A stretch of DNA of 29,408 nt from a virus, in the IMG/VR virus record IMGVR_UViG_3300036671_000194, positions 1 to 29,408 of that record. The stretch is one strand, 5' to 3'. Positions 2,454 through 29,408 of the stretch are shown piece after piece. Each line of letters opens with the position of its first letter. Positions within the stretch are counted from its first letter, which is position 1. The notes beneath the pieces were generated by a model, which searched no databases, was not told the origin of the DNA, and saw only the letters and a list, made by a program, of their open reading frames with translations. The position numbers and the translations under genes were made by a program.

Positions 2454-2888
2454 TTAAATTGCCTTGTAATGTTCTAGGAGTGCTTGTCTTAGCTTGGCTG
2501 ATCCGCCTACTCTAATGTTTATAATGCCATTATAATAGTCGTCAGTTTCTAAAACTCTGCGATCGAATTGCTCTTTTGCCTCGATGTAAGACAGTTCTGC
2601 CTTACTGGTACAGTAATATAATATTTCTCTTGTGAATTTTTCCGGGCCTAATCTTGTGATGTCTGCGTTGAGTCTATCGGACGAACCCCAATAATCACGC
2701 CAATCACTTTCAACTACGCTTCTGCGTTTGAGTTTTTTGCCTTTGAGAGGTGGTTTAGTACGTTTGAACTGTGCTAATTTCTTGCCTATGTACTTTTGCC
2801 CGGTAGTGAGATTTGTAATGATGTACACGAAGCCAATTTTGCCTTCGGGTATTTCGATTACAGGTTGGTTTTGATATGTCCATGTCAC
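2454..2888 (-). CDS. GIY-YIG-like endonuclease (144 aa)
   Basis: The domain looks like a GIY-YIG nuclease. GFVYII is at residues 19-24 and KYIGKK at 32-37 (the two beta-strand motifs). A basic stretch follows (40-56), then DYWGSS (65-70) and LGPEKFTREIL (80-90), typical of phage Seg-like proteins. A helix carries the candidate catalytic glutamate (YIEAKEQ, 101-107), and an Asn lies at 120. The start is GTG at 2888-2886, forming a GTGA overlap with the stop of the previous gene; no better start exists before the domain. Known relatives cut DNA as free-standing homing or repair nucleases. Here the gene is translationally coupled to the end of the gp46/47 operon, which hints at a DNA-processing role and not a recent homing insertion, though homing cannot be excluded. 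The exact active-site residues are inferred. Confidence 0.75.
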   Translation of the reverse strand: MTWTYQNQPVIEIPEGKIGFVYIITNLTTGQKYIGKKLAQFKRTKPPLKGKKLKRRSVVESDWRDYWGSSDRLNADITRLGPEKFTREILYYCTSKAELSYIEAKEQFDRRVLETDDYYNGIINIRVGGSAKLRQALLEHYKAI

Positions 2889-3118
2889 TCTTTAGTTATC
2901 TTGGGTGGTCTGCCTAGCATGCCTTTCTTGGCTTTTTTACGTGCCTGTCGTTTTTCTTGTATTTCTGTTCGCCTTGTTAGTGCTTCACTGCGTATTTTTG
3001 ATAGCCAATATCTTGCCTTGAGTCCTGCCTCGTCTGAATTTTTATATTCAAAATTCGTTTGCCACTTGAAATATTCCTGAAAAGCGGCAATCATGTTGTC
3101 ATGACTGTCTGTTGACAT
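2885..3118 (-). CDS. Small basic conserved-type phage protein (77 aa)
   Basis: The function is unknown. The ATG at 3118 shares one base with the TAA of gene 46 (TAATG), and the end overlaps the next gene by 4 nt, so it belongs firmly to the operon. The sequence is helical and strongly basic towards the end (residues 44-77: many Arg/Lys, KRQARKKAKKG, then GRPPKITKE). The GRPPK-type tail resembles AT-hook minor-groove-binding motifs, so DNA binding is a reasonable guess. The N-terminal half (MIAAFQEYFKWQTNFEYKN) is amphipathic. No signal peptide or membrane segment is seen. Confidence 0.8.
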   Translation of the reverse strand: MSTDSHDNMIAAFQEYFKWQTNFEYKNSDEAGLKARYWLSKIRSEALTRRTEIQEKRQARKKAKKGMLGRPPKITKE

Positions 3119-10752: not shown

Positions 10753-13259
10753 TGGCAGAACAACAAAGACCGTCGGCCAGTAACGAAGGCAAAAGAAGCA
10801 AACTAGGAAACGGCCCATACTTGGCACGAGTAATAAGCCACCTTGACACTACATTCATGGGCGGCCTTGAAGTACAAATATTAAAAGATCAGTCTAACAC
10901 AGCAGGTGAAGATTCTGAAACATACTCTGCCAAATATGCAAGTCCATTCTTTGGGTATACTCCGTTTGAATTCATGGGACAAAATGATGGATCAAAATCT
11001 ACCATAGAAGGATTCAACGACACACAAAAATCGTACGGCATGTGGTTTATTCCGCCTGATGTGGGTGTCAACGTTCTTGTTATATTTGTTGACTCAGATG
11101 AAAGTCAGTGTTATTGGTTTGCCTGTGTGCCTGGTAGATACACCAACAACATGGTTCCAGCCATTGCAGGCAGTACCAACTATCAGCTAGACAGTGTAGA
11201 CAAAGCAAGATACGGCTCGTTGACAGATGGTGCTGGAAAACCTTTGCCTTTGCCTGTGGCGGAAATTAATAAAAGATATAATGCGTTTGGAGACACCAAT
11301 GGCGGCGCCAGAGAAATAGATCCAGAAAAAATTAAAAAAGTTGTTCACCCAATTGCAGATAGATTTTTAGAACAAGGTCTGTTGAGGGACGATGTCAGAG
11401 GAGTTACTACTTCGTCTGCTAGACGTTCGGTTCCTAGTTCAGTATTTGGCATATCAACACCAGGTCCAGTGGATCGACGAACAAATGCTAAAAAAGCAAA
11501 GATAGGAAAAATTGGCGACACCACAGAACCAGTTCCTGTAAGCAGATTAGGCGGCACACAACTTGTAATGGACGATGGTGATGATAGATATCACAGAGAA
11601 ACAACTGCCGCTGAGGGTCCTGTAAAATATCTTGATCTGTTAGATCCAGAAGTACAAAAAACACTCAACCAAGGATTGCCTACAGTTCCTTACAGCGAAT
11701 ATTTTCGTATTAGAACCAGAACCGGACACCAGCTGTTGATGCACAACAGTGAAGATCTAATCTACATTGCCAATGCCAGAGGCACCACCTGGATAGAAAT
11801 GACCAGCAATGGTAAAATTGATATTTTTGCACAGGACAGCATCAGCATAAGAACTGCAAATGATTTGAATATAAGTGCTGATAGAGATTTGAATTTTGCC
11901 GCCTCTAGAGATATTAATTTCAATGCAGGCAGAGATTATAAATTAACAGTTGCCAACAATAGTGATGTTGTTGTAGGAGTCAACCATACTGTTACTATTG
12001 GTGCAAATCACAATTTTACAGTTGGAGCCAATCAGAAACTAACAGTGGTTGCAAACAATGACATAGTTGTAGGCGCTGCTAACAAAATAACAACTGGTGG
12101 TACGCTGGATATTGCAACTGGTGGTATCCGTAAAGATTCTCAGGCTAGTTTTAATCTAAACAGCACCAGCGATAATAAATTTAGTTCTGGTGCCGATACC
12201 AGCATTTTAAGCAGTGGTAATCATATTGAAACAGCGGCTCGCATTGATATGAATGGCACAACTGCTGCCAAGGCAGCCGCAAGTGCAGCGCCTGGTAGTG
12301 CAGCTAGTCAAGCTACTCCTGCACTGTGGCCACGGCGTGTTCCTGAACACGAACCCTGGAAAGAACACGAACATTTTGACCCGGCCAAATTTATACCATC
12401 GCAAACTCAAGCAAGCACTAGTGCCAGTTCAGTATCAACAAATGCATCACCGTTGATCAACAGTGCATCAGACGAAGAAAACAGCGGCGCAAATACTACT
12501 CCTGAAGCCCGAACCGCAGCAAATCAAAAAGGTGACCAGGTAATTATACCTAGTGCAGGTGTCCCTGTTGGCGAGCAACCTAGCAATCCTGTGCCTATTA
12601 CACAAATGCAAAGATACTTCCTGGGAGAGTTGATCAAAATACTCAAACTAGATCCTGTAAACTGTTTAAAAAGTTCTAATCCTGCAGATCTAGCCCCAGG
12701 GGAAACGCCAGGAAATGCTCAAGCACTGGGCATGGCACTGGGACAGATTGAAGCCGAATGTGGATTCAGACCGCGAAACGAAAACTTGAATTACAGTGCG
12801 CCTAGACTAAGAGAAGTGTTTCCTAGTCGTGTTCGTACCAATGAATTTGCACAACAACTTGCAGCAGCAGGCCCAGAAGCAATTGGCAACACATTGTATG
12901 GAGGTAGATTTGGAAATGCAGCAAACGAAGGATATCTGTATCGTGGCCGCGGACTCATTGGCGTAACCTTCAAGGCAAATTACATCACGTACGGCAAGTT
13001 GGCAGGTTGTCCACAGATTCTTCAAAACCCTGATCTAGCAAATGATCCTATTATTACTACCAAACTTGCGGTTTCATTCTTAAATTCTAAAACAGTGTCT
13101 TGGACCAGTTTTAATTTTAATGCACTAGGTGAGCAGTTCCGTGTAGCAGTGGGTTATGCTGATCGAGGCGGCGCAGAAACAATAAAGCGCATAGGGCTAG
13201 GACGTGGATTCACCGCAAAACTGTTGAATGGCAGTTTAACACCATCCGCAAGCACGTAG
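10752..13259 (+). CDS. 5: gp5-like baseplate spike with C-terminal GH19-like glycosidase domain (835 aa)
   Basis: This is the central spike that pierces the cell envelope. Residues 20-145 form the gp5 OB-fold domain (GPYLARVISHLDTTFMGGLE, then the FIPPDVGVNVLVIF strand). A conserved middle (about 250-345) includes RLGGTQLVMDDGDDRY and RIRTRTGHQLLMHNSEDL. Residues 345-470 are the beta-helix with octad-like repeats (VVVGVNHTVTIGANHNF). A Ser/Thr/Ala-rich linker (490-615) leads to a C-terminal GH19 chitinase/lysozyme-like domain (about 618-835): GQIEAECGF (664-671, with candidate catalytic E667/E669), YRGRGLIGVTFKANY (730-744) and a NPDLA motif. In T4 gp5 the glycosidase domain is of T4-lysozyme type and sits between the OB fold and the helix. 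Here the order is OB, helix, GH19. Its substrate is probably peptidoglycan. Confidence 0.9.
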   Translation: MAEQQRPSASNEGKRSKLGNGPYLARVISHLDTTFMGGLEVQILKDQSNTAGEDSETYSAKYASPFFGYTPFEFMGQNDGSKSTIEGFNDTQKSYGMWFIPPDVGVNVLVIFVDSDESQCYWFACVPGRYTNNMVPAIAGSTNYQLDSVDKARYGSLTDGAGKPLPLPVAEINKRYNAFGDTNGGAREIDPEKIKKVVHPIADRFLEQGLLRDDVRGVTTSSARRSVPSSVFGISTPGPVDRRTNAKKAKIGKIGDTTEPVPVSRLGGTQLVMDDGDDRYHRETTAAEGPVKYLDLLDPEVQKTLNQGLPTVPYSEYFRIRTRTGHQLLMHNSEDLIYIANARGTTWIEMTSNGKIDIFAQDSISIRTANDLNISADRDLNFAASRDINFNAGRDYKLTVANNSDVVVGVNHTVTIGANHNFTVGANQKLTVVANNDIVVGAANKITTGGTLDIATGGIRKDSQASFNLNSTSDNKFSSGADTSILSSGNHIETAARIDMNGTTAAKAAASAAPGSAASQATPALWPRRVPEHEPWKEHEHFDPAKFIPSQTQASTSASSVSTNASPLINSASDEENSGANTTPEARTAANQKGDQVIIPSAGVPVGEQPSNPVPITQMQRYFLGELIKILKLDPVNCLKSSNPADLAPGETPGNAQALGMALGQIEAECGFRPRNENLNYSAPRLREVFPSRVRTNEFAQQLAAAGPEAIGNTLYGGRFGNAANEGYLYRGRGLIGVTFKANYITYGKLAGCPQILQNPDLANDPIITTKLAVSFLNSKTVSWTSFNFNALGEQFRVAVGYADRGGAETIKRIGLGRGFTAKLLNGSLTPSAST

Positions 13260-13768: not shown

Positions 13769-16700
13769 ATGACCACAACAAGCAGACAAAATAATTTAAT
13801 TCTAAATCAAGATTGGACTAGAATCTATCAGACATTTAGAAGCGCTGATTTCAAATCTTACGATTTTGAAAATCTACGTCGGGTTATCATCACATATCTA
13901 CGTGAAAATTACCCAGAAGATTTCAACGATTACATTGAAAGTTCGGAGTACATGGCTCTTATTGATGCCATTGCTTTTCTTGGTCAAAGTCTGTCCTTCC
14001 GTATTGATCTAGCCAGCAGAGAGAATTTTATTGAGCTGGCAGAAACAAAAGAAAGCGTGCTACGTATTGCTCGCATGCTGAGCTACAATGCCAAACGAAA
14101 CATTGCTGCAACAGGCTTGTTGAAATTCACTTCAATATCCACAACAGATACTATTCTCGACAGCAATGGCAAAAATCTAGCACAACAGACTATTTCTTGG
14201 AATGATCCTACAAATACCAACTGGTTAGAACAGTTTATTCTGGTACTGAATTCTGCCATGAGCGACAATACAGAATTTGGCCGCAGTCAAGGATCTGCCA
14301 CTATTCAGGGTATTCCCACAGAACAATATCGTTTTAGAACAACCACCACAGATGTACCACTGTACGCATTCACTAAAACAGTAGCATCAAGGGGTATGCC
14401 ATTTGAAATAGTTAGTACAGCGTTTGCTAATAGTGAAAACATCTATGAAGAACCTCCAGTACCGGGAAATCAATTGGGATTTGTGTACAAAAATAACGGA
14501 GCAGGTCCTGGCAATGCCAACACTGGGTTCTTTTTGTTGTTCAGCCAAGGCACATTAGAGCTTGCTGATTTTTCAGTTGATGTGCCTACAACAAATGAAA
14601 AAATTGCTGTTGATGCATCAAACATCAACAATGATGACGTATGGTTATTTTCACTAACTTCAACCGGATCACAGTTGTCTGAGTGGACAAAAGTTTCCTC
14701 GTTAGTAGGAAACAACATTGCATACAACAGTGTAAATCAAAATATTAGAGATATATATGCCATAAACACGAAAGAAAATGACAATATTGATCTGGTGTTT
14801 GCCGATGGAGTGTACGGCAATTTACCACAGGGTGCGTTTAGAGTTTACTACAGAACAGGCAATGGATTATCCTATACTGTATATCCAGGAGACATGCGAG
14901 GAATTAATATCAGTATCAACTATGTAAATTCTACAGGAGTTGCGCATACATTAACAGTTGGGCTTGCTTTACAATCAACAGTTGCAAATTCAGCAGCATC
15001 TGAGGATATTGATTCTATTAGAACCAATGCACCAGCTGTATATTATACTCAGAATAGAATGATCACAGCTGAGGATTATAATTTAGCACCGTTATCTAGC
15101 TCACAAAATCTTATCAAGATCAAAGCAATTAACAGAACCTCTAGCGGTATTTCAAGAAATTATGATATTATTGATGCATCCGGAAAATACAGCTCGGTTA
15201 ACATTTTTTGCGATGACGGATACCTATTCAAAGAGACAGGGGAAAACACACTGTCTTTTAAATTCAATAGTAGAATAGATATTATTAATTTTATCAACAA
15301 CACCGTTGAACCTCAATTTACCAACGACGAAGTTTATAATTTTTACTTCACAAACTTTGACAAGATTTTATTCACAGATGTTGATACCGAATGGGTTTCA
15401 GTCACAACCACAACTCCAACTGGCTATTTTAAAAATCGTGTCGATAGCTCGTTATTAAAAGTTTCTAATTATTCTACAGGCAGTTTAAAATATTTTTATG
15501 TTGGTGCATTAATTAAATTTGTTCCACCAGCAGGATTTGCATTTAAAGATAGTAAATTGGTTGTAGTTGATGCAACAGATCCAGCGCAAACTGATAGACT
15601 ATGGACTGAAGCTGTTCAAATTGTAGGAGATGGAACCAATGCTGGCCGAGGAGTATTAACCAGCGGCCTTGGCCCAATCACCCTGAGCGATCAAGTGCCA
15701 ACTGGTGCAATTGCTACTAGAATTGTTCCTAGATTTGTAAACAATCTACCTATATCGTTGCAGACTGAAATTGTAAATCAGGCGTTTCAAAATTTAAATT
15801 TTGGTTTAAGATACAATATGCTGACATCAAGCTGGAACATTGTTACTTCGTCTAATCTTAATCTTGCTGGCAACTTTAGTTTAGGAAAAGAAGGAGACAC
15901 TACAAATACCAATGCTGATGCTTCATGGAGTGTGGCATTTGTTAAAGAAGCAGATAGTTACACAATCAGAGTAAGAAAGCTAATGTACGTGTTTGGTAGT
16001 GTTAACCAAAACAGATTTTATCTTGATACCAACGAAGAGTCGTACAATGACAGTGTAGGTGCAGTAATACAGGATCAAGTAAAAGTACTTGGAATAAACA
16101 CAGGAAGCAATTCAATTACAGAATTAAAACAAGATATTCCGTTTACGTTAATTGACACAATTAAATTTGATGATGGGTATGAAAGTACCAACGAAATCAA
16201 ATTGACATTTTACGATTCTAACAATAATGGAGTTATTGATAATCCAGATTCGTTTGAGCAAATTGTAGGAATAGACCAACAATTAAACTATCTATTTTTT
16301 AAAGAAACAACTGACCAATACGGATCTACGTTCTTTGAATTGTTAGACAATTCTAATAATTTTATTTTAATTAGAGAAAAAGAATCACTAGTTGATTTTA
16401 CAGATACAGTAACGTATCCAGCAGATCAGTTAATTTATTTTTATGATGTTGATGTTGACGTGGTTAAAAAAGTCAATAGGACAACCAACACATTAGATTT
16501 GATCACAAATTACAAGGCTAATATAGGTCGTCGCAATTTAAAATTTCAATACACACACAACGCCAGTGAGAACCGCAGAATAGATCCAAGTTCTAGCAAC
16601 ATAATTGATTTGTACATGTTGACAAGATCTTACAATGATGATTACAGACTGTATTTGTCAGGAGCTATATTAACAGAACCTGTTGCTCCTGACAGTGACA

Positions 16701-17176
16701 GTTTAAGAATTTCTTTTGGAACCAATTTATCTAGTATTAAATCGTTAAGCGATGAAATAATTTATCATTCAGTTAAGTACAAAGTGTTATTTGGTAGCAA
16801 GGCAGATGAAAAACTTCAAGCAACATTTAAGGTTGTTAAAAATCCAGGTAGAACTGTCAATGACAATGATTTAAAAGTTAGAGTTATTGGAGCAATTAAT
16901 AATTTCTTTGATATAAAAAACTGGGATTTTGGAGATAGATTTTACATGAGCGAAATGACAACTTATATTCTAAATACAGTTGCTCCGGACCTAGCAAATA
17001 TTGTTATTGTTCCTAGACAATTCTCGCAGGTATTTGGTAGTTTGTTTGAAATTCAAAGTAGATCAGACGAAATTTTAGTTAGCGGAGCAACAGTAGACGA
17101 TGTTGAAATAGTTACGGCTATCACAGCAGCAGAAATTGGAACAAGTATTAATAATGTAGTTACATCAACATTTTAA
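13769..17176 (+). CDS. 6: gp6-like baseplate wedge protein (1135 aa)
   Basis: This is the main wedge subunit of the baseplate inner ring (gpJ-like family). The N-terminal part is typical: DWTRIYQTFRSADFKSYDF, YLRENYPEDFNDYIESSEY and ASRENFIELAETKESVLRIA (residues 15-110). The J-like domain follows, with TEDYN-like MITAEDYNLAPL near 430-445. The closing motif at about 1025-1090 (INNFFDIKNWDFGDRFYMSE, then IVIVPRQFSQVFGSLFEIQ) is also typical. At 1135 aa it is much longer than T4 gp6 (660 aa). The extra mid-region carries an EF-hand-like loop (816-827, DSNNNGVIDNPD). AGGAA lies just before the ATG. Confidence 0.93.
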   Translation: MTTTSRQNNLILNQDWTRIYQTFRSADFKSYDFENLRRVIITYLRENYPEDFNDYIESSEYMALIDAIAFLGQSLSFRIDLASRENFIELAETKESVLRIARMLSYNAKRNIAATGLLKFTSISTTDTILDSNGKNLAQQTISWNDPTNTNWLEQFILVLNSAMSDNTEFGRSQGSATIQGIPTEQYRFRTTTTDVPLYAFTKTVASRGMPFEIVSTAFANSENIYEEPPVPGNQLGFVYKNNGAGPGNANTGFFLLFSQGTLELADFSVDVPTTNEKIAVDASNINNDDVWLFSLTSTGSQLSEWTKVSSLVGNNIAYNSVNQNIRDIYAINTKENDNIDLVFADGVYGNLPQGAFRVYYRTGNGLSYTVYPGDMRGINISINYVNSTGVAHTLTVGLALQSTVANSAASEDIDSIRTNAPAVYYTQNRMITAEDYNLAPLSSSQNLIKIKAINRTSSGISRNYDIIDASGKYSSVNIFCDDGYLFKETGENTLSFKFNSRIDIINFINNTVEPQFTNDEVYNFYFTNFDKILFTDVDTEWVSVTTTTPTGYFKNRVDSSLLKVSNYSTGSLKYFYVGALIKFVPPAGFAFKDSKLVVVDATDPAQTDRLWTEAVQIVGDGTNAGRGVLTSGLGPITLSDQVPTGAIATRIVPRFVNNLPISLQTEIVNQAFQNLNFGLRYNMLTSSWNIVTSSNLNLAGNFSLGKEGDTTNTNADASWSVAFVKEADSYTIRVRKLMYVFGSVNQNRFYLDTNEESYNDSVGAVIQDQVKVLGINTGSNSITELKQDIPFTLIDTIKFDDGYESTNEIKLTFYDSNNNGVIDNPDSFEQIVGIDQQLNYLFFKETTDQYGSTFFELLDNSNNFILIREKESLVDFTDTVTYPADQLIYFYDVDVDVVKKVNRTTNTLDLITNYKANIGRRNLKFQYTHNASENRRIDPSSSNIIDLYMLTRSYNDDYRLYLSGAILTEPVAPDSDSLRISFGTNLSSIKSLSDEIIYHSVKYKVLFGSKADEKLQATFKVVKNPGRTVNDNDLKVRVIGAINNFFDIKNWDFGDRFYMSEMTTYILNTVAPDLANIVIVPRQFSQVFGSLFEIQSRSDEILVSGATVDDVEIVTAITAAEIGTSINNVVTSTF
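16214..16249 (+). other. EF-hand-like calcium-loop motif within gene 6
   Basis: Residues 816-827 read DSNNNGVIDNPD, with acidic or Asn ligands at positions 1, 3, 5, 9 and 12, Gly at 6 and Ile at 8. This fits the EF-hand or dockerin loop pattern. It lies in the part of the protein that has no T4 counterpart by length. Confidence 0.5.
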
Positions 17177-17181: not shown

Positions 17182-20100
17182 ATGGCAAACAAATTTTATC
17201 CCAATAGCGGCGTACCAATTAGAAGAACAGTTGATCTTCTACCAGTCATTTTTCAAACAAGTGCCAATGATAAATTTTTATCAGGCGTACTAGATCCACT
17301 GGTTCAACCAGGCGTGTTAGACAAAGTAGTTGGGTATGCAGGTCGCAAATACGACAAGACATACATTGGATCAGATGTTTATGTAGATGCAGACAACACA
17401 TTAAGAAGTAGATATCAATTAGAGCCTGGTGTTGTTTATAAAAACAATAATACTGTAGAAAATTTTTACGACTATATTGATTTTAAAAATCAATTAAAGT
17501 TCTTCGGAAATACAGACGAACGCGACGACAATATTACAGGACAGCAGCACTATACATTGAATCCCCCAGTTGACTGGGACAAATTTATTAACTATAGAGA
17601 ATACTACTGGGAACCAAATGGTCCACGCAGTATTGCAATCGCCGGACAATCTGCCAGCATCACCAGCACCTACAAGGTGGTATTAGGAACAACTAGAAAT
17701 TCTTTTGTATTCACTCCGGATTCTTATACAAATAACCCTACAATCACATTGTACAGAGGACAAACATACAAATTTAGAATCAATGCACCAGGTCAGGGAT
17801 TTTCAATTAGAACAAACTACGATACTGGATCTTTGATATTTGAACCAGTTAGAGCATATAGAGCTGGTGAGTTGGCTGTGTTTGACAACAAGTTATGGAG
17901 AGCCAACGTAGATGTTTCGCCGCTTGATGGAAGTTCAATTACTATTGATAGTCAAGACTGGAGTTATGTTGAACCAGCATCTGCTGGTACAGCACTAGAA
18001 TACCCAAAAGGAATAACCAACAACGGAACTGAAAACGGAGTATTGACATTTGATATTCCTTATGATGCACCGGATGTACTTTATTATCAAAGTTTAATTA
18101 CTCCTGATATGTTTGGTAGATTCTTAATATCAAACATTGAAAACAATACAAGTATCAATGTCGAACAAGAAATTGTAGGAAAATCTACATATACATCCAG
18201 TAACGGGGTAGTTCTATCCAACGGAATGGTTCTCGAATTTAGAGGAACAGTACTGCCTTCTAAATATGCCACAGACACCTGGCTAGTTGAAGGAGTTGGA
18301 GAAGCTATTACTCTTACCCGATTTGCTGATTTAATAGTTCCAGTGTTGACAACAGAAGTGCCCGAGGTGCTGTTCGACAATGAAGGATTTGATACTCAAC
18401 CATTTGACGATGCTACTGCATATCCAACTTTTAAAGATTACATAACTATCAAACGAGACAGCGTGGATTCTAATCCATGGAGTCGTTACAATCGTTGGTT
18501 TCACCGAAGTGTATTAGAACAGGCATACTCTTTAAGAGGAGTAGATTTTCCAGCGACCGAATCTCTAAGAGCCAAACGACCAATTATTGAATTTAATTCA
18601 AATCTACAGCTATTCAATCATGGTGCTGTAGCAAAACCCACAGTTGATTATATAGATACTTTTACCACTGACATCTTTAGTAATATAGAAGGCAGTGCTG
18701 GCTACAATATTGATGGAGAGTTCTTGTTCGAAGGAGCAAGAGTATTATTTGTTGCAGACACCGACAACCTTGCAAATAATAAAATTTATCAAGTTTCATT
18801 TGTAACATTTAAAAATTCACGTCAACTACATCTTATAGAAACTGCTGACACATTGTCAACAGTTGGAGAATGTGTGTTGGTGCAACGAGGAACAGTCAAT
18901 GGCGGTAAAATGTTCCACTACAACGGAACCAGCTGGGTAGAGAGTCAGGCCAAGACTGATGTAAATCAGCCACCATTATTTGATGCATACGATTCTAATG
19001 GAGTGAGTTTTGCAGATCCTGTAAATTATGCCTCCAGCACATTTAGTGGAAGTAAAATATTAAGTTACAAATTAGGAACCAGCGTAGTTGATAAAGAATT
19101 AGGATTCAGTATTGATTATCTTAATATTAACAATATTGGCGACATACAATTTAGCTGGGCATGGGACACTGAATCTTTTAATTATAATTTAACAAGATTT
19201 ATTCAAACTAAAAATCTTTCTACAGGATTTTATAAATTCAACAATATTGCTCAGACAGAATACAGCAATGGATGGATAGAATTTAGCAATGAATTTGTTC
19301 AGCCTATAATTGATAGTCAGGTGGTACGTACTGCATCTAATACGTTGACATTTAACACAGTTATCTGGCAAAATATCACTGTAGATCCAATTATTAATTT
19401 CTACGTCAACGGAAACAAGTATACCGGAACCTGGACTAGAAATCTGGGTACATTTACGTTTAGTACAGAGTTTTTGGTCAACGATGCAGTTTCAATAAAA
19501 CTAGTTGGAGACATAATTCCTGAACAAGGATATTACGAAATTCCTGTAGGGCTAGAAAAGAATCCGCTTAATAGTTCCTTACAGTTGTTTACTCTTGGAC
19601 AAGCAATTGATCACTTATCAACTGCTTTAGAATTCAATACAGACATTGCAGGAATAGTGCCAGGAAATTCCAACCTACGCGACCTTTCATCATATCAACA
19701 ATACAGTAAACGTTTTTTAAAACATTCAGGATTAACTCCTATTACTATGATGACATTGTGTGATAAAACACACAACGTTATTAAATCAATTCAATATGCT
19801 AGAAAATCCTACACTGATTTTAAAAATAATTTCCTGGCACGAGCATTAGATATTGATTTCAATGAAAATACTGCAAACTTTGTTGATGATATCATCAACA
19901 GCCTGACCAAAACTAAAACAATAGATAGTTCATTTGCTGTATCAGACATGATTGGAGCAGGCGCATATACTTCAATTAACTATACCGTCGAAGACACTGG
20001 AATTGTTACATATGCATTATCAGAGAAATTTGATCTCATAACGCCAAGTACACGAGCAGTGTATGTATATGTCAATGAAAATCAATTACTCAATGTAGTT

Positions 20101-23100
20101 GATTACACATTTAATTCTACATTTGGCTTTGTTCAACTATTGATAACGTTGGCAGAAGGTGACCGGGTTGAAATTAGGGAATACATCTCAACTTCAACAA
20201 ACTATATTCCTCCTACACCAACGTCAATGGGCTTGTATAAAAAATATACTCCTACTAAATTTATAGACGACACTTATACTGAACCTAGAGAAGTAATTCA
20301 AGGACACGATGGTAGCATTAGTGCAACATTTGGTGATGTGCGAGATGACTTGTTATTAGAATTAGAATATAGAATTTATAACAATATTAAACAAGAATAC
20401 GATGAAAATATTTTTAACATTGATGATATTGTTGGCGGATATAACGGCGTAGGTATTTACGAAAAATCTCAGCTTGATGCTATTGTAAATCAAGAATTTT
20501 TAAAGTGGATTCAAAATACCAACATCAACTACACGTTAAACACCTACTTTGATAGCCAAGATAGTTTTACATATACCTATTCCAGAATGGCAGATCCAAC
20601 CAAAACAGTTAGCCTGCTAGGATATTGGAGAGGTGTATATCAGTCATTTTACGACACTGATCGGCCACATCGTTGCCCTTGGGAAATGTTAGGTTTTAGT
20701 CAGAAACCTACCTGGTGGGAAAACCAGTATGGTGCTGCTCCTTACACCAGCGGCAATTTAATTTTGTGGGAAGATCTATCAAACGGCATCATTCGTCAAG
20801 GCAACAGAGCTGGAACGTATGCTCGTTACAAAAGACCAACATTGTTGAGTCATATCCCAGTTGACAACGATGGCATACTATTGAGCCCGTTAGATTCTGG
20901 ATTAGCACAAAACTTTTCTTTGATTAACAATCAAGGACCTTTTAGATTTGGTGATATTGGACCTGCAGAATATGCCTGGAGGGCCAGCTCGGAATGGCCG
21001 TTTGCTGTAACTCTAGCCATGTGCTTGCTAAAACCTTTTGAATTTATCTCTGACAGTTTTGATAGATCAAGAGTATCAAAAAATTTATTAGACCAAACAA
21101 TTCACAGCGACACCGAAACATTTGTCAAGCTGACTGATTTTGTAACGCATAAAGATGATATCTATATTGGTCTTGTAAAATACATTATTGACTACGTTAA
21201 ATCTAAAGGAATTAATCCTGGTACGTTGTGGGATAAAATTTCTAATCTTGATGTTGCCTTGTCATATAGAATGTCTGGATTTGTGGACCAGTCCCAACAA
21301 AGATTTTTGTTAGATAGTAAAAATCCAAATGCAACATCCAGCAGTATATTTGTTCCACAAGAGAACTACGATATTATCTTTAATGTAAGTGCTCCTATTG
21401 CAAGTATTACATACAGTGGTGTTATTTTAGAAAAGACAAGCAGCGGCTGGGTAATTAATGGATATGACGATATAGCTCCATATTTTAATTATTTTCAAGC
21501 CATGCCCAATCAACGAGATCCATTGATCTCAGTGGGCGGAGTGAGCGAAAACTTTCTTGACTGGACAGATAACAAACTATACAACAACGGAACATTGGTT
21601 AGAAATGGAAACATTTTTTACAGAGCATTAAAAACACATACCAGTAGCGAATTATTCGATACAACATTGTGGCAAAAGTTGCCAGGCGTTCCTCAGGTAG
21701 GGGCAGTTGAAGCATTTAGAAGAAAAACATTCAACACCATATCTACAAAACAGTTGAGTTATGGCACCCAGTTTACAAATATTCAACAGGTTGTAGATTT
21801 CTTACTAGGGTATGAAGCATACTTAAACAGTGTTGGATTTAAGTTTGACAACTATGATTCAGAAAACAAAGTGTCTCAAGACTGGCTAAGTTCTTCTAAA
21901 GAATTCATGTTCTGGACCAAGCATAACTGGCAAGTTGGAGCATTAATCTCTATCAGTCCGTCAGCACAAAAAGTTAACATCACTGTGCCAGTTGGAGTTG
22001 CTGACAGCATATTAGATGGATTCTATAACTATCAAGTCCTCACAGGTGATGGCAAGCCGTTACCGCCGCAGTTCATTGATGTGAACAGAAGTTTTCAAAA
22101 CATCACGGTTACTACCACAAACACGACCGATGGCATTTATTACTTAAAACTATATTACGTATTAAAAGAACATGTAACTATTTTTGATGATCGTACGGTG
22201 TTCAACGACATTGTCTACGATAAGACTACAGGATATCGTCAAGGCCGTATCAAGGTACAAGGGTTTCGAACAACTGATTGGGACGGTGATTATACCAGCC
22301 CTGGATTCTTGTTTGACAATGTTAATATCCAAGCATGGTTACCGTACACTGATTATAAGTTAGGTGACATTGTGGTCTACAGAAGTTATAACTGGACCAG
22401 TTTACAAAATCAACTAGGCGAAGCTACTTTTGACGAAACATACTGGACTAGATTAGACACTACACCTACTAAACAATTGGTTGCCAACTTTGATTATAAA
22501 ATTAATGGATTTGCAGATTACTTCGAAGTAACTTCAGAAGGTCTAGACAAGAGCAACAGAGATCTAGCACGACACACAATTGGTTACCAAACACGAACTT
22601 ATTTGCAGAATCTGTCAGCAGATCCTGTGACACAATTTCAATTGTATCAAGGATTCATAAGAGAAAAAGGAACAGCCAATGCTATTACTAAAATTTTTAG
22701 TAAACTGAGTCGCTCTGGGGCAGACAGCATTGTACTCAATGAAGAATGGGCATTCTTGGTAGGACGTCTAGGCGGCACAGACGAAATTACCGAAATTGAA
22801 ATACAATTAGAAAAAAATAAATTTCAATTAAATCCTCAACCGTTTTTAGTACAGTCAACAGTGTCTAATAATATTACGGATCAAAATTACAGAGTAACAC
22901 AGACAGACTTTACTATTTCTGCTATTCCGTACTCTACTAATATTAATTTCATGTCGACAGCAGCAGAACCTATGATGACAGCAGGTTATGTTTCAATTAA
23001 TGACTTCGACCATGTTCTTTCAAACAGAACAGAACTAGTAACACTTGACATTGCTACAGTAAATGAAAATGATCATATCTGGATAATATCAGATAAAGAT

Positions 23101-26100
23101 TCATGGACAGTATTGAGAGTCAACGAATCACCACTTTTATATATTATTGCAGCCGAAAGTCAAAGCGACACCACAGTAACAATCACGTTGAATAGACCTC
23201 ATGATCTAACAGTTGGTGAATATGTTGGAATTAGAGAGTTACAAGATCTAACTGGATTCTATCCAATTATAGGTGTTACAAACAACACAATCACTATCAG
23301 CGATACAGGTCCGTTGGCAGAAGTTACAATTGATACTGCCTTTACAATCAATCTACAATTATTAGTTGAGGCAAGATTTTCTTCTTACGATGCAGTAGAT
23401 CCAGCAGTAAATGCAGTATTAAAAAACAAAGCCAGATTGTTTATTGACAAAAATGGTAGTGACTTATGGGAAGTAGTTGAAAAAAATAATGTGTATTCGC
23501 CTAAGTTAATTTCTGAATATGGAACTACAACTCCACTTAATGCAGGAAAACGAGTAGTATACGACAACACTCATAAACAAATTATTACAAGTATTCCTGG
23601 TTCCGGAATCATCAATGTGTATGTAGAAACTGACACTGGACTACAAATAAAACAAATTATTTCTCCTCCAGTGGGAACTTTTAATATTTCTGTGGGATCG
23701 TTTGGAAATGCCATGACAATTTCTCCAGATGGCAAATATTTAATTGTTGGAATTCCGCAAGCAAGTGGAGTACCTTGTAACTATCAAGGCGAATGGGGAC
23801 CAGATGCCCGTTACCTTCAAGATGACGTTGTATTGTACGAAGGCAGATTATGGAAAGCATTAAGCAGTAACGATAGCGATGGCAGTACTACTGCAACAGT
23901 CAATACAGACGATTGGGAATTGGCAACTAGTATTCCAGTTACTTCTTCAGGAAGCAATACTGGATTACTGAATCAAGGTATGATTGCTATCTACACATAC
24001 ATCGATGGCCGTTATACCAATACCGCAGCATTTGCCAGTCCTCGTCCTGCAGACTTAGAAAAGTTTGGTTCTGAAATCACTGCTGGATTTGATGGAACAA
24101 ATTATTATCTTGCCGTTAGTGCTGTTGGTTCTCAAAATGGTTCTGGCAGAGTTTACTTGTTTAAAAATAGTGGCGCAGCCTGGGCTCATATGGAAAATCC
24201 TCAATATAGAGGATTATACAACTTTGCTGAAAATTATTATGCAGGCGATATTGTATGGCAAGCAGCAGTGGATCCAATTGCAGAAGCAGTAAAAGGAAAC
24301 CTGTGGCAAGCAACAGTCGATCAGTTCGGCGATGGCAGCACACTGACATTAGATTCAATGAACTGGTCAAAGGTTAGTGAAATTTCTACTAACTGTTCGC
24401 TACCAACCAATATTGCATTAGAGGACGATAGCTCTACACTGGCATTCGGAATAACAGGATTATTATCTGCTAACCAACTAGCAGAAATAATCAAGCAAGA
24501 AGATCACTTTGGATTCAGCATGGCAATGAGTCACGATGCGGCCATCCTTGTGGTAGGAGCACCAGATAGTGATGGTCAATATTTTGCAAATTACAGAGGT
24601 GTATGGAGAACCGATACCGAATATGTAGAAGGCGAAGTAGTAAAATACTCAGATCCAGCGACAGCTGATTCCTATCAATACTACAAGTTAGGAGACCCTG
24701 GCCTGTCTCCTGATTCTACATATAGAAGCTTAAACGAAGATCCATCGGACAGCGCTGTTTGGCAAGTTGTAGGAGATAGCACAACCACACCGTCTGGCAA
24801 AATCTTTGTTTATAAAAAAACAAGTTATGACCTATATCAATTGACACAAATGATCAACGCTGGATCTATTTCGTCATTTACTGATATAGATTCTGGCCTG
24901 GTAGTTGGCACAGGCGACCAGTTTGGATTTGCAATGGATATCGATTCCTCTGGAACAACATTGGTTGTTTCAAGTCCACGATCTGATTTTAATTATCAAA
25001 CTCAAGGTTCTGTGTATTTGATGACATTGGATTCTGCCACAACAGAATTTAGAGTGCAACAAAAATTAGAAAGTTTTGAACGTTACCCAGGTGAATATTT
25101 TGGGTATGGAGTATCTATAAGTCCAGACGGTGCAAAAGTAGCTGTAGGTGCAAGAAACGCATACAATAACTATCCTGTAAATTTTGACATAATCAACGGC
25201 ACAACATTTGATCAGAATAGAACTTCGTTCTACATTGATCAAGGATACACCGGAGGCGTATACATATTTGACAAAAAAGATCAGGTATTTTTCTTGACTG
25301 AAAAATTAGAAGATTTTTTTGCACCAAACGAAGGATTTGGTTCCAGTGTTGATTGTGTAGGATCAACAGTTGTGGTGGGATCTCCATATTACAGAATACC
25401 TCAGAGCAATCAGGATGGAGTTGTTACCTACCCAGGCACGTTTGTGGGTAATGTACGATTGTTTAAGAAAGATGAAAATGTTGATTCTTGGGCAGTAACT
25501 TCCCAGCAACAAGCTGTTGTTGACTTGAGAAAAATTAAAAGCATTGAATTATATGACAATGTTAACAATGTTAAAATTCAAGATATTGACTATGTAGATC
25601 CTGCAAAAGGAAAAATTCTCAACATTGCAGAACAAGAAATTAAATTTAAAACAGCATACGATCCTGCAGTTTATACAATTGGAACAGAGGTCTCAGTAGT
25701 TGATCCTGTAATCAACTGGATGGAGAAAAATGTAGGACAACTATGGTGGAATATTGGAACAGCCAAATGGCTGTATGCCGAGCAAGGAGAGTTAGCATAC
25801 AGAGTAGGCAACTGGAACCAACTGACTCAGGGTGGATCTGTTGATGTCTACGAATGGGTCGAAACTGCTCTATTGCCTAGCGAATGGGCTTCAATAGCAG
25901 ATACAAATGCAGGATCAGTGCAAGGAATTTCAGGACAACCATTATATCCTAATGATGACACCTACAGTATCAAACAACTGTTCAGCACAACTACAGGAAC
26001 AGTAAATCAAACTCTTTACTATTACTGGGTCAAAGGCAAAGCAGTAACACCAGATAACATGCCAGGCAGAAATAGATCAGCTTCAGAGATTACAAACTTG

Positions 26101-29100
26101 ATTTCGTCACCTGCTGGCACAGGTACAGCATTTATAGCATTAATTGATGCTGATAAATTTTTAACTTATAATTTTGATTCTGTTATTGGTTCTGACACTG
26201 CTTTATTAAATTTCAAATACAAAGATAATATACAACGTTCTATACCAATTCATAGCGAATATCAGCTATTGTCTGAAGGTGTTGCAACAAGTCTTCCTAC
26301 TGCAAAACTAGAAAATAAATGGATAGATAGTTTGATAGGATACGATGCGGTTGGTAATAGAGTGCCAGACAGCAATCTCTCTGCCAAACAAAAGTACGGA
26401 GTATCATACAGACCACGTCAAAGCATGTTCGTTGATAGAACAGCAGCTCTTAAAATTGCAATTAACAATATTAATTCTGTGCTACTACAACGCCCGTTTG
26501 CTTCAGGTATTAATTTTTCAAATTTAAATTCAGTAGATGTTGCACCTGCCACGGTACTAAACTTATACGATGCTACAGTAAACACTGAAATAGATCTACA
26601 AAATGTAGGTGTAGTTAGAACAAAAAGAGCCATTCTATCTGCTAATCTAGTAAATGGTCAATTAGATACCATTGATATTATTGATCCTGGATTTGGATAC
26701 AAAGTGACTCCGCTAGTGATTATTTCTGGCGATGGATCAGGAGCAAGTGCAACAGTTGTACTGGACAATCAAGGCAGAATAATTTCTGTTACAGTTACTT
26801 CTAGAGGTAAAAAATACAGCACCGTATCTGCAACAATTAGATATTTTGCGGTGTTGGTTCAAAATGATTCTACTATTGATAACTTTTGGAGCATATATTC
26901 GTGGGATGATATTCGAAGAGTGTTCTTTAGAAGTCAGACACAGGCCTTTGACACAACTCGTTATTGGAGTTATGCTGATTGGTGGGAAACTGGATATAGC
27001 AAAAATGTCAGAGTTACTCGAGAACTATTAAGCATTTTTGAAATAGTATTATACACAATACTGCCCGGTGATCTAATAAGAATTAAAGAATTCCAAGATG
27101 GTGGATGGGCAGTGTTTGAAAAGAAATTAAATTCCGTAAAAGTTGAAAATACAGAAGAAACTTTCCTAGATCAATTCACTCAAGTTGGAAGAGAAAATGG
27201 TACTATACAATTTAATGCATCGCTATATGACAACACTATTTTAGGAATAGGATTTGATAATACACAGGCATTTGATGACACTGGATATGACATCGATAAT
27301 TCTATAGAATTAAGAAATATTTTTAAAGCTGTTAAAGAAGATATCTTTACATCCAACAATGGAGATTACTCAGCAGAGTGGAATAAGTTGTTCTTTACAT
27401 CTATGAGATACATTCTGTCTGAGCAAACATATGTGGATTGGATGTTCAAGACCAGTTTTGTAAATGCCATTCATAATGTTGGAACATTAGAAAACCCACC
27501 AAACTATAGAAATGATAATTTATCAAATTATCAAGATTACATCAACGAAGTTAAACCGTATAGAACAACAGTTAGAGAATATGTAAGTCGTTACCAATCA
27601 CTTGAATTATCAGGTTCTGCATTGTCAGACTTTGATTTGCCTGCAACTTTTTCTGTAGCCGATGGAAAAGTTGTTCCAGTTACTATAGGTCGTAGTGAGT
27701 TAGATATATATCCATGGAAGTGGTGGACTGATAACAACAGTTACTCTGTGGTAGAAATTGTAGTATACGAACCAGGTTCTCAATACACATCTCCGCCAAC
27801 AGTGTTGATTACTGGTAATGGAACCGGCGCCACCGCTCAAGCATACATCTCTAATGGTCGAGTTTCTGGGGTAGTAGTTCTAACTGGCGGTACCGGATAT
27901 ACTGTTGCGCCTACAATTTCTTTAGTAGGTAGTAACCCTGCTGGAGCAGTAATAGCCAAAGCTGTTGCAGTACTAGGAAACACATTAGTAAGAACGTTTA
28001 ATGTAGGTGTTAAATTTGACAGGATTACATCAACTGGAATTTATACTGCATACTCACAGTTAGAAACATTTACTGCATCTGGATTAACAGCAGTATTTGA
28101 ATTGTCATATGCTCCAACAAGAGATAAAACTACTTTTTCAATAACAAAAAATGATCAATTGGTATTGAATAGTGATTACACATTAACATTATATTACTCA
28201 AACACAGATAGTTATTCGTTACTAAGAGGTAAAATTATATTCAATACAGCTCCTGCGGCTGGTGATGTAATTATTGTAAATTATGATAAAAACATAGAAT
28301 TATTTGATGCAGTAAATCGTATTGAACAAAAATATAATCCAACAGCTGGAATGGCTGGCAAAGAGTTAAATCAGTTAATGACAGGTATTGACTTTGGCGG
28401 AGTACAAATACAAGGCACAACATTTGATGTTACTGGCGGCTGGGACGCCTTGCCATGGTTTACAGACAACTGGGACAGTGTGGAAGCAAGTTCTGATTAC
28501 TATAATGTGTGTGACGGAAGCACAACAGATGTAACATTGCCATATATCCCTGCCAACGGCCAAGAAATAAACATCTATATCAAACGAGCAGGCAAAACTA
28601 CATCTACAAGAATAGATGATCCTAATTACACCGATGCGTGGGATTCTGCATCAATAATAAATCCTGCTGCTCAGATGCCAACCTTTGTAGGTGATGGAAC
28701 ATTACGTGATGTGGAAATTGGTCGATATATTCAAACCAATGCAGGCGATATTTTAATATTCCGCCCGATAGAAAGTGACGGCTCGGTTACTATTACTGAC
28801 GAACAATTGTTAGATACCAGTATAAGTGGCGGCACGTTGTCAGCAATTGATAGTGCGTATATTACTGCTTCAGGAACAACCGCAGAAGAAATTACTATCA
28901 ATGGCGGAAGTTTTATTAGTCCTGAGCAAGTTCCTGCTCCTGAAGAAAATATCCCAGGTCAGGTACTAGATAGCGTGTCTATCAAAGTATACAACAACAC
29001 AGTATCTGGTGCAGCCACATTGCAATCTAAGATTACTGAAGGTAATGACATCAATACAGTGTACGCTATAGGACAAACTGTGTTAAAAAATAATTCAGTA

Positions 29101-29408
29101 TTGGTATATATTAACAAAATTAAACAAGTGTACGGTACTGATTATACTTTAGATTTAGAAAATTTCAATGTTGAATTTGCAGTGCCACCGGCTGTTGGAT
29201 CAGTAATTGAAATATTATCCATTGGCTTGGGCGGTCTAGGAATATTAGATTATCAGGAATTTGTTGCGGATGGCGCCACCAACTTGTTCTTGACCAATGC
29301 CAATTATGATTACACCGCATCTATATTTGTAACAATTAATGGCGAATCTGTAGATACTGGATTTAGAAACAGTACCGACATAGTAGATGCTGTAGGCAGA
29401 ACCTTGGT
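17182..29408 (+). CDS. 7: Giant gp7-like baseplate/adhesin protein, partial (at least 4075 aa)
   Basis: The ATG at 17182 lies 5 nt after the TAA of gene 6. The frame remains open to the window end. The N terminus (FQTSANDKFLSGVLDPLVQPG, then DWDKFINYREYYWEPNGP) is of the kind seen in the very large protein following gp6 in T4-like marine phages. Synteny makes it the gp7 counterpart, although T4 gp7 has only 1032 residues. Modules seen in order: a CBM5/12-like unit (221-265); a VNxxxLxxxxDYT unit (959-1001); CBM-like units at 1461-1502 and 1719-1759; an FG-GAP propeller (about 2165-2780) with three CBM-like inserts; two GxGY-type repeats (3168-3219 and 3529-3583); and more VN...DYT units near 3650 and 3975. 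It also has a motif GYWRGVYQSFYDTDRPHRCPWEML in two parts (about residue 1150). It probably forms the outer wedge and contacts the host surface. The exact role and total length are not visible here. Confidence 0.75.
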   Translation, partial: MANKFYPNSGVPIRRTVDLLPVIFQTSANDKFLSGVLDPLVQPGVLDKVVGYAGRKYDKTYIGSDVYVDADNTLRSRYQLEPGVVYKNNNTVENFYDYIDFKNQLKFFGNTDERDDNITGQQHYTLNPPVDWDKFINYREYYWEPNGPRSIAIAGQSASITSTYKVVLGTTRNSFVFTPDSYTNNPTITLYRGQTYKFRINAPGQGFSIRTNYDTGSLIFEPVRAYRAGELAVFDNKLWRANVDVSPLDGSSITIDSQDWSYVEPASAGTALEYPKGITNNGTENGVLTFDIPYDAPDVLYYQSLITPDMFGRFLISNIENNTSINVEQEIVGKSTYTSSNGVVLSNGMVLEFRGTVLPSKYATDTWLVEGVGEAITLTRFADLIVPVLTTEVPEVLFDNEGFDTQPFDDATAYPTFKDYITIKRDSVDSNPWSRYNRWFHRSVLEQAYSLRGVDFPATESLRAKRPIIEFNSNLQLFNHGAVAKPTVDYIDTFTTDIFSNIEGSAGYNIDGEFLFEGARVLFVADTDNLANNKIYQVSFVTFKNSRQLHLIETADTLSTVGECVLVQRGTVNGGKMFHYNGTSWVESQAKTDVNQPPLFDAYDSNGVSFADPVNYASSTFSGSKILSYKLGTSVVDKELGFSIDYLNINNIGDIQFSWAWDTESFNYNLTRFIQTKNLSTGFYKFNNIAQTEYSNGWIEFSNEFVQPIIDSQVVRTASNTLTFNTVIWQNITVDPIINFYVNGNKYTGTWTRNLGTFTFSTEFLVNDAVSIKLVGDIIPEQGYYEIPVGLEKNPLNSSLQLFTLGQAIDHLSTALEFNTDIAGIVPGNSNLRDLSSYQQYSKRFLKHSGLTPITMMTLCDKTHNVIKSIQYARKSYTDFKNNFLARALDIDFNENTANFVDDIINSLTKTKTIDSSFAVSDMIGAGAYTSINYTVEDTGIVTYALSEKFDLITPSTRAVYVYVNENQLLNVVDYTFNSTFGFVQLLITLAEGDRVEIREYISTSTNYIPPTPTSMGLYKKYTPTKFIDDTYTEPREVIQGHDGSISATFGDVRDDLLLELEYRIYNNIKQEYDENIFNIDDIVGGYNGVGIYEKSQLDAIVNQEFLKWIQNTNINYTLNTYFDSQDSFTYTYSRMADPTKTVSLLGYWRGVYQSFYDTDRPHRCPWEMLGFSQKPTWWENQYGAAPYTSGNLILWEDLSNGIIRQGNRAGTYARYKRPTLLSHIPVDNDGILLSPLDSGLAQNFSLINNQGPFRFGDIGPAEYAWRASSEWPFAVTLAMCLLKPFEFISDSFDRSRVSKNLLDQTIHSDTETFVKLTDFVTHKDDIYIGLVKYIIDYVKSKGINPGTLWDKISNLDVALSYRMSGFVDQSQQRFLLDSKNPNATSSSIFVPQENYDIIFNVSAPIASITYSGVILEKTSSGWVINGYDDIAPYFNYFQAMPNQRDPLISVGGVSENFLDWTDNKLYNNGTLVRNGNIFYRALKTHTSSELFDTTLWQKLPGVPQVGAVEAFRRKTFNTISTKQLSYGTQFTNIQQVVDFLLGYEAYLNSVGFKFDNYDSENKVSQDWLSSSKEFMFWTKHNWQVGALISISPSAQKVNITVPVGVADSILDGFYNYQVLTGDGKPLPPQFIDVNRSFQNITVTTTNTTDGIYYLKLYYVLKEHVTIFDDRTVFNDIVYDKTTGYRQGRIKVQGFRTTDWDGDYTSPGFLFDNVNIQAWLPYTDYKLGDIVVYRSYNWTSLQNQLGEATFDETYWTRLDTTPTKQLVANFDYKINGFADYFEVTSEGLDKSNRDLARHTIGYQTRTYLQNLSADPVTQFQLYQGFIREKGTANAITKIFSKLSRSGADSIVLNEEWAFLVGRLGGTDEITEIEIQLEKNKFQLNPQPFLVQSTVSNNITDQNYRVTQTDFTISAIPYSTNINFMSTAAEPMMTAGYVSINDFDHVLSNRTELVTLDIATVNENDHIWIISDKDSWTVLRVNESPLLYIIAAESQSDTTVTITLNRPHDLTVGEYVGIRELQDLTGFYPIIGVTNNTITISDTGPLAEVTIDTAFTINLQLLVEARFSSYDAVDPAVNAVLKNKARLFIDKNGSDLWEVVEKNNVYSPKLISEYGTTTPLNAGKRVVYDNTHKQIITSIPGSGIINVYVETDTGLQIKQIISPPVGTFNISVGSFGNAMTISPDGKYLIVGIPQASGVPCNYQGEWGPDARYLQDDVVLYEGRLWKALSSNDSDGSTTATVNTDDWELATSIPVTSSGSNTGLLNQGMIAIYTYIDGRYTNTAAFASPRPADLEKFGSEITAGFDGTNYYLAVSAVGSQNGSGRVYLFKNSGAAWAHMENPQYRGLYNFAENYYAGDIVWQAAVDPIAEAVKGNLWQATVDQFGDGSTLTLDSMNWSKVSEISTNCSLPTNIALEDDSSTLAFGITGLLSANQLAEIIKQEDHFGFSMAMSHDAAILVVGAPDSDGQYFANYRGVWRTDTEYVEGEVVKYSDPATADSYQYYKLGDPGLSPDSTYRSLNEDPSDSAVWQVVGDSTTTPSGKIFVYKKTSYDLYQLTQMINAGSISSFTDIDSGLVVGTGDQFGFAMDIDSSGTTLVVSSPRSDFNYQTQGSVYLMTLDSATTEFRVQQKLESFERYPGEYFGYGVSISPDGAKVAVGARNAYNNYPVNFDIINGTTFDQNRTSFYIDQGYTGGVYIFDKKDQVFFLTEKLEDFFAPNEGFGSSVDCVGSTVVVGSPYYRIPQSNQDGVVTYPGTFVGNVRLFKKDENVDSWAVTSQQQAVVDLRKIKSIELYDNVNNVKIQDIDYVDPAKGKILNIAEQEIKFKTAYDPAVYTIGTEVSVVDPVINWMEKNVGQLWWNIGTAKWLYAEQGELAYRVGNWNQLTQGGSVDVYEWVETALLPSEWASIADTNAGSVQGISGQPLYPNDDTYSIKQLFSTTTGTVNQTLYYYWVKGKAVTPDNMPGRNRSASEITNLISSPAGTGTAFIALIDADKFLTYNFDSVIGSDTALLNFKYKDNIQRSIPIHSEYQLLSEGVATSLPTAKLENKWIDSLIGYDAVGNRVPDSNLSAKQKYGVSYRPRQSMFVDRTAALKIAINNINSVLLQRPFASGINFSNLNSVDVAPATVLNLYDATVNTEIDLQNVGVVRTKRAILSANLVNGQLDTIDIIDPGFGYKVTPLVIISGDGSGASATVVLDNQGRIISVTVTSRGKKYSTVSATIRYFAVLVQNDSTIDNFWSIYSWDDIRRVFFRSQTQAFDTTRYWSYADWWETGYSKNVRVTRELLSIFEIVLYTILPGDLIRIKEFQDGGWAVFEKKLNSVKVENTEETFLDQFTQVGRENGTIQFNASLYDNTILGIGFDNTQAFDDTGYDIDNSIELRNIFKAVKEDIFTSNNGDYSAEWNKLFFTSMRYILSEQTYVDWMFKTSFVNAIHNVGTLENPPNYRNDNLSNYQDYINEVKPYRTTVREYVSRYQSLELSGSALSDFDLPATFSVADGKVVPVTIGRSELDIYPWKWWTDNNSYSVVEIVVYEPGSQYTSPPTVLITGNGTGATAQAYISNGRVSGVVVLTGGTGYTVAPTISLVGSNPAGAVIAKAVAVLGNTLVRTFNVGVKFDRITSTGIYTAYSQLETFTASGLTAVFELSYAPTRDKTTFSITKNDQLVLNSDYTLTLYYSNTDSYSLLRGKIIFNTAPAAGDVIIVNYDKNIELFDAVNRIEQKYNPTAGMAGKELNQLMTGIDFGGVQIQGTTFDVTGGWDALPWFTDNWDSVEASSDYYNVCDGSTTDVTLPYIPANGQEINIYIKRAGKTTSTRIDDPNYTDAWDSASIINPAAQMPTFVGDGTLRDVEIGRYIQTNAGDILIFRPIESDGSVTITDEQLLDTSISGGTLSAIDSAYITASGTTAEEITINGGSFISPEQVPAPEENIPGQVLDSVSIKVYNNTVSGAATLQSKITEGNDINTVYAIGQTVLKNNSVLVYINKIKQVYGTDYTLDLENFNVEFAVPPAVGSVIEILSIGLGGLGILDYQEFVADGATNLFLTNANYDYTASIFVTINGESVDTGFRNSTDIVDAVGRTL
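17842..17976 (+). other. CBM5/12-like module 1 in giant protein
   Basis: Residues 221-265 show the pattern Y-x-x-Gx-x-V-x-x-x-x-x-LW-x-A ... DWSYV (RAYRAGELAVFDNKLWRA, ending DWSYVE). This matches the spacing of small CBM5/12 (ChiC-like) carbohydrate-binding domains with their aromatic residues. The call rests on pattern only. Confidence 0.45.
21562..21687 (+). other. CBM5/12-like module 2 in giant protein
   Basis: Residues 1461-1502: WTDNKLYNNGTLVRNGNIFY, then RALKTH and a closing TTLWQKLPG. Same spacing as the other units. Confidence 0.45.
22336..22458 (+). other. CBM5/12-like module 3 in giant protein
   Basis: Residues 1719-1759: WLPYTDYKLGDIVVYRSYNW, then TSLQNQ and closing ETYWTRLD. 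This is the clearest of the W...YxxGDxVxY...W...W units in the protein. Confidence 0.6.
23701..25500 (+). other. FG-GAP beta-propeller region with inserted CBM-like modules
   Basis: Six FG-GAP-type blades begin at residues 2174 (FGNAMTISPDGKYLIVG), 2295 (FGSEITAGFDG), 2443 (FGFSMAMSHDAAILVVGAP), 2581 (FGFAMDIDSSGTTLVVSSP), 2640 (FGYGVSISPDGAKVAVGA) and 2719 (FGSSVDCVGSTVVVGSP). Each has the FGxxhxhxxDGxxLhVGhP pattern of integrin-alpha-like propellers. The outer strand GxVYLF/Y is also seen (GRVYLFKN, GKIFVYKK, GSVYLM, GGVYIFDK, GNVRLFKK). Blades 1-3 are interrupted by CBM5/12-like units at 2205-2248, 2342-2398 and 2475-2530. In known proteins such propellers bind ligands, often at cell surfaces. 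Confidence 0.75.
26683..26838 (+). repeat. GxGY-type beta repeat, copy 1, in giant protein
   Basis: Residues 3168-3219: DPGFGYKVTPLVIISGDGSG, then ASATVVLDNQGRIISVTVTS, then GKKYS. It pairs with a second copy at 3529-3583 with the same order PG-x-x-Y...P-x-V-x-I-x-G-x-G-x-GA...G-x-x-Y. Such units are common in large phage tail proteins. Confidence 0.55.
27766..27930 (+). repeat. GxGY-type beta repeat, copy 2, in giant protein
   Basis: Residues 3529-3583: YEPGSQYTSPPTVLITGNGT, then GATAQAYISNGRVSGVVVLT, then GGTGYTVAPTISLVG. It aligns with the copy at 3168-3219 and was probably derived by duplication. Confidence 0.55.

Follow-up and report, generated by a model that had tools for sequence, protein, structure and literature searches.

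Gene neighbourhood of the giant protein

The window, i.e. the whole stretch of DNA analysed, is a 29.4 kb virus fragment (29,408 nt) with no near-DNA match among named phages. Its last ORF encodes a giant protein and is open at the 3' end. The giant comes after a hub gene, whose product has a gp5-type trimerisation domain, then a gp25-like gene and finally one like gp6. The last two genes of this series are:

13769..17176, + strand, T4 gp6-like baseplate wedge gene, directly upstream of the giant (phrog_10646 'baseplate wedge subunit', E 5e-276)
17182..29406, + strand, giant virion/baseplate-region protein, 4075 aa seen, ORF cut by the window end (phrog_10938, E 0)

Complete homologues of the giant are about 4600 aa long. 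A gp6-like gene directly followed by a homologue of the giant is also present in PA5oct, Atu_ph07 and 121Q, and in T4 the corresponding position directly after gp6 is occupied by gene 7. The PA5oct homologue, EST35_0128, is marked ESI-MS/MS in its annotation, indicating virion membership. The giant is probably a virion protein, and its gene lies in the T4 gene 7 position. The whole giant had no match among PDB sequences, and a profile of its conserved scaffold (see below) matched no solved structure there, T4 gp7 included; the label 'baseplate wedge' is therefore derived from gene position, and the giant may yet be a remote homologue of gp7. At its C-terminus, the gp5-like hub (10752-13259) is similar to a GH19-type endolysin by phrog_181 (1e-25), the Pfam GH19 score being below cut-off, whereas the T4 hub carries lysozyme at this place.

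An integrin-type propeller within the giant

FG-GAP_2 (PF14312) was detected in the giant by Pfam in four stretches (E 7.8e-15), scoring 55.2 bits against a curated cut-off of 23. The strict blade pattern occurs four times, compared to 0.07 expected from residue shuffles, and the W-module pattern described below six times, compared to 0.05, so that chance occurrence of both patterns was ruled out. For structure prediction, aa 2085-2800 were aligned with 41 viral-contig relatives (alignment A1). The resulting AlphaFold2 (AF2) model has a mean pLDDT of 79.6 and a pTM of 0.81, and its strand map gives a closed propeller of seven four-stranded blades. The predicted features are:

23524..25476, + strand, integrin-type seven-bladed beta-propeller including inserts, aa 2115-2765 (AF2, VIA, Pfam FG-GAP_2)
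23524..23679, + strand, blade B0, degenerate, aa 2115-2166 (four strands in the model)
23698..24051, + strand, blade B1, interrupted by insert I1, aa 2173-2290 (model and relatives)
24064..24201, + strand, blade B2, aa 2295-2340 (model)
24508..24861, + strand, blade B3, interrupted by insert I3, aa 2443-2560 (model and relatives)
24919..25071, + strand, blade B4, no insert, aa 2580-2630 (Pfam, model, blade pattern)
25093..25317, + strand, blade B5, no W-module, aa 2638-2712 (model, blade pattern)
25327..25476, + strand, blade B6, no insert, aa 2716-2765 (model, blade pattern)

In a Foldseek search with the model, integrin alpha heads rank first (4e-11). VIA-align superimposes model residues 19-683 on integrin alphaL (5e6u) with Z 38.1 over 359 residues at 3.0 Å, and all 50 matches listed are integrins. 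An earlier sequence-only reading had suggested an integrin-type propeller with at least six FG-GAP blades and proposed structure prediction as a check. The prediction returned the propeller, with the W-rich segments outside the blade strands. At least six blades are indeed present, although the count is seven, as degenerate B0 lies before the blade that had been taken as the first.

No full DxDxDG calcium-binding loop is present in the propeller, which has one partial motif, 'DIDSSG'; such loops are not common to all FG-GAP propellers. A motif search of the propeller for RGD, KGD and LDV found none of them. The integrin likeness is meant as a resemblance of fold only, and the giant is not presented as an integrin alpha subunit.

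W-modules and their fold

Six W-modules were found in the giant by an iterated family profile, at aa 219-264, 1457-1500, 1715-1759, 2200-2251, 2342-2401 and 2470-2532, the last being matched in two pieces. Three modules in the first three blades had been noticed from the sequence; all three are confirmed by the profile, but they are accompanied by three additional copies elsewhere in the giant:

17836..17973, + strand, W-module M1, outside the propeller, aa 219-264 (family profile, 1e-12)
21550..21681, + strand, W-module M2, outside the propeller, aa 1457-1500 (family profile; CBM_5_12, E 4e-4)
22324..22458, + strand, W-module M3, outside the propeller, aa 1715-1759 (Pfam, family profile)
23779..23934, + strand, insert I1, W-module of predicted CBM5/12 fold, in the strand 2-3 loop of B1, aa 2200-2251 (model, family profile, fold of the isolated module)
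24205..24384, + strand, insert I2, W-module close to B2 strand 4 or to the junction of B2 and B3, aa 2342-2401 (family profile, relatives)
24589..24777, + strand, insert I3, W-module, longer and divergent, in the strand 2-3 loop of B3, aa 2470-2532 (model, family profile)

In the M3 region, the scaffold matches of five named phages leave 2-7 aa, i.e. there is neither room for M3 nor a gap.

Pfam detects CBM_5_12 in three stretches of the giant (E 4.9e-6), with the best single match at 1718-1746, in M3. The whole giant scores 26.9 bits against a cut-off of 26.2, while individual modules stay below the cut-off. Searched singly, I2, I3 and M1 gave no Pfam CBM5/12 match and are joined to the family only through the iterated profile. 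In a broader sample of 69 W-modules, 57 match CBM5/12 at E<=1. The profile built of these 69 (A2) has its best match in the Milano tail spike (1e-9), and also matches PDB 2rts (3e-7), the chitinase A1 ChBD (3e-7) and the phage 7-7-1 fibre. Modelled alone, I1 reaches a pLDDT of 73.7; CBM5/12-type domains are on top in Foldseek (prob 1.00, best E 3e-3), and VIA aligns it to such domains with Z 5-7 (7.0 at best), modest values as expected at 60 residues. Profile matches and the top matches of the I1 model thus indicate that the predicted fold of W-modules is CBM5/12 (small ski-boot).

In CBM5 domains, the core includes a buried Tyr and the final Trp, and chitin is contacted by an exposed Y/W-W pair (PMC8449059). 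The core is kept throughout the family (column 20 aromatic and column 60 Trp, both in 69/69), but at the two columns of the contact pair, as equated in our reading of the profile alignment with 2rts, only 0/69 and 3/69 modules have an aromatic, and at the third contact column 0/69 do. Hence the earlier designation of the inserts as sugar-binding modules is not supported, as neither the window modules nor almost any of their relatives have the chitin-contact aromatics.

The spike protein gp124 of Milano contains two W-modules, at 29-72 and 80-117, and by their coordinates both should fall inside its tail-binding part. Among the loci examined, further W-modules are encoded by a gp6-like wedge gene (L113) and by two other ORFs (L148, L123), while the fibre genes, as far as these were identified, carry none. 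The gene in L113 (ORF from 5583) is the gp6-like gene of Vibrio phage 2.275.O, with three tandem W-modules. Loss of contact aromatics, overlap with the Milano tail-binding part and absence from fibre genes together support docking or spacing better than sugar binding, and we somewhat favour docking as the role of the modules. Binding faces of CBMs vary, and the modules may bind sugar in a non-canonical way. A general caution follows for CBM5/12-like modules in phage tails, which are not always sugar binders; here the contact residues are gone, and in the solved spike of Milano the fold is found within the tail-binding region.

Position and removability of the inserts

The inserts had been read as lying between blades. 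This does not apply to I1 and I3, each of which interrupts its blade (B1 or B3) in the strand 2-3 loop; I2 lies close to B2 strand 4 or where B2 and B3 meet. In the model I2 comes after strand 3 of B2, and pLDDT is 35-40 just after it. Strand 2-3 loops and strand 4-1 connections of propellers are on one face, which is the ligand face of integrins. The loops that carry I1 and I3, both of the strand 2-3 type, would share this face if general propeller topology applies.

Natural relatives differ in their inserts. Both I2 and I3 are absent from L087, in which B3 is closed as a plain blade, 'ILAVGAPQIFNEIPENKGKVFVYQ', and I2 is absent from L088, L098/L102 and L089. Additional stretches are present before I2 in L103, L094 and L106, and before blade B4 in L089. 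As blades still close in relatives without inserts, the inserts represent removable domains. This agrees with the proposal that W-modules are separate, looped-out domains, which is also supported by structure prediction and fold search. It is very improbable that the W-rich segments are instead strands of irregular blades. Such a reading could draw on the lack of Pfam matches for I2 and I3 alone and on the low-confidence flanks of I2 in the model, but it was rejected because canonical strands flank I1 and I3 on both sides, insert-less relatives exist, and the isolated module is predicted as a CBM5/12 fold. We regard the architecture of a propeller with looped-out modules as highly probable.

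Conserved scaffold and variable slot

The propeller is located between two conserved segments of the giant:

22480..22911, + strand, conserved scaffold segment upstream of the slot, aa 1767-1910 (profile match with PA5oct, Atu_ph07, SCTP-2, 121Q and Vibrio 2.275.O)
25507..26484, + strand, conserved scaffold segment following the slot, aa 2776-3101 (profile mapping with the same five phages, spanning about 2766-3104; tblastn)

The downstream segment has tblastn matches in 55 phage records, with 32% identity to the PA5oct group. Between the two segments, 121Q, Vibrio 2.275.O, PA5oct and SCTP-2 have 130-330 unmatched residues; Atu_ph07 has about 1500. A census of viral contigs and named phages comprised 152 distinct slots. 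A propeller match was found in 122 of them, 97 of which also have W-modules; the slots without a propeller match are either short (16) or long (14), and in eight of the long ones Pfam detected no FG-GAP. One propeller-less slot (L117, 12332-15085) is filled by a GSGY-type repeat array. In another locus (L192, 12170-14737), the propeller carries small inserts of another kind, which our reading of the sequence seems to place in strand 3-4 hairpins.

A scaffold tree, built by a quick method with the slot left out, separates the propeller-less phages from all others by a branch with full support; as the tree is unrooted, it is compatible with propeller gain as well as loss. Module-bearing propellers nest among plain propellers, with two changes, and inserts are kept across about 55 divergent scaffolds. 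It is quite likely that the propeller fills a lineage-specific slot in a conserved scaffold. Baseplate giants of jumbo phages are mostly unannotated, and a conserved scaffold with a defined slot, the contents of which differ by lineage, gives testable hypotheses on what these contents do.

Comparison with known systems

The predicted propeller shares with the integrin alpha subunit seven blades, FG-GAP_2 motifs and extra domains set into propeller loops, as in the integrin alpha-I domain, which is inserted into a propeller loop. It differs in having only about 17% identity, in lacking DxDxDG calcium loops, in being embedded in a giant protein, and in inserts of CBM5/12 fold rather than I domains. 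Stand-alone integrin-like propellers annotated as 'hemagglutinin' exist in jumbo phages (Atu_ph07 A0A2L0UZX4 and AP-J-162 gp213), but these are separate proteins of 375-394 aa outside the giant scaffold, and the Atu_ph07 giant itself has no FG-GAP match. The protein gp213 was described as similar to human integrin (PMC11242549), and the CBB virion contains a Kelch propeller protein (PMC5259590).

The chitin-binding domains of chitinases (1ed7 of chitinase A1, and 2rts) have the fold, the core Tyr and the final Trp in common with the phage modules, which however lack the chitin-contact aromatic pair and sit in propeller loops. The N-terminal modules of Milano and 7-7-1 tail spikes (8fqc, 9rkv) are the best profile match and likewise tandem W-modules of a phage tail protein; those of Milano lie in the tail-binding region. 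They occupy the N-terminus of trimeric spikes and not a propeller. Four proteins of named phages that share the scaffold, PA5oct EST35_0128, 121Q gp582, Atu_ph07 gp180 and SCTP-2 gp140, have no FG-GAP propeller detected in the slot and contain zero to two W-modules (E below 1e-5) at other places.

A tblastn search of named phages with the propeller alone (E 0.01) gave no match, and no named phage in the collection searched was found to have this propeller in the slot. A genome scan for the propeller returned only four weak FG-GAP-type loci, all in metagenome-assembled bacterial genomes, and consequently provided no prophage or host link. No paper connecting FG-GAP with a baseplate or tail fibre was found in the open-access literature. 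Separate integrin-like propellers in jumbo phages and CBM5/12-like modules in phage tails are thus already known; new is their combination, in which a propeller is installed in the giant scaffold and W-modules in the propeller loops.

Proposed function

In our preferred explanation, the giant, encoded directly after gp6, combines a conserved scaffold with a variable slot. In this uncultured aquatic jumbo-phage lineage, the slot holds a predicted closed seven-bladed integrin-type propeller, which would act as a rigid, peripheral display platform. Three modules of CBM5/12 fold are set into the propeller loops, two of these loops being of the strand 2-3 type. Since the fold is retained in the modules and the aromatics for chitin contact are not, the modules are proposed to be protein-docking or spacing plugs that would hold adjacent parts of the baseplate or fibres in place and modulate the face that is exposed. 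We consider this the best explanation, with a probability of about 0.55. The propeller itself most likely serves the baseplate as a platform that docks fibres or faces the host.

The sequence-only reading favoured a receptor-binding platform, with the propeller face and the W-modules binding host surface glycans directly. The CBM5/12 fold and the integrin-type face are in line with it, as are the presence of modules in most propeller slots, suggesting usefulness, and the variation of insertions among lineages. Yet the contact-pair positions are almost devoid of aromatics, and conservation of the inserts is similar to that of the propeller (51-56% and 49-66%, respectively), whereas receptor-contact surfaces are often hypervariable. 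Moreover, no binding to the host was seen for the neck-fibre CBM of Anabaena phage A-1(L) (PMC10966104). Direct glycan binding is accordingly the less likely alternative, and we consider the receptor platform unlikely. Propeller and modules could also merely extend the scaffold in size or stiffness and bind nothing specific. Slots of only 230-330 aa, or slots with unrelated repeats, in related phages imply that the scaffold as such can do without the propeller; however, a single branch of the tree sets the propeller-bearers apart and the inserts are conserved across divergent scaffolds, which suggests selection for function and makes a plain structural filler rather improbable.

Together with the display platform and docking modules preferred here, a more speculative possibility is that this lineage built an analogue of the integrin head into its baseplate. 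A propeller chassis with exchangeable small domains in its loops would then offer a swappable surface for host recognition or fibre docking, replacing other slot contents. We put this forward tentatively.

Other features of the window

A gene for a 493-aa protein with a glycine/alanine-rich hydrophobic middle and no PHROG or Pfam match is located at 460-1941 (- strand). At 2454-2888 (- strand), a gene for a SegE-type GIY-YIG homing endonuclease (Pfam, 1.9e-34) adjoins gp46/gp47-like genes. Downstream of the propeller, the giant includes two stretches of GxGY-type beta-repeats (aa 3133-3222 and 3519-3602, about 26578-27987), which have matches among PHROGs for unrelated tail and connector proteins. 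Repeats of this type recur many times in the Atu_ph07 giant.
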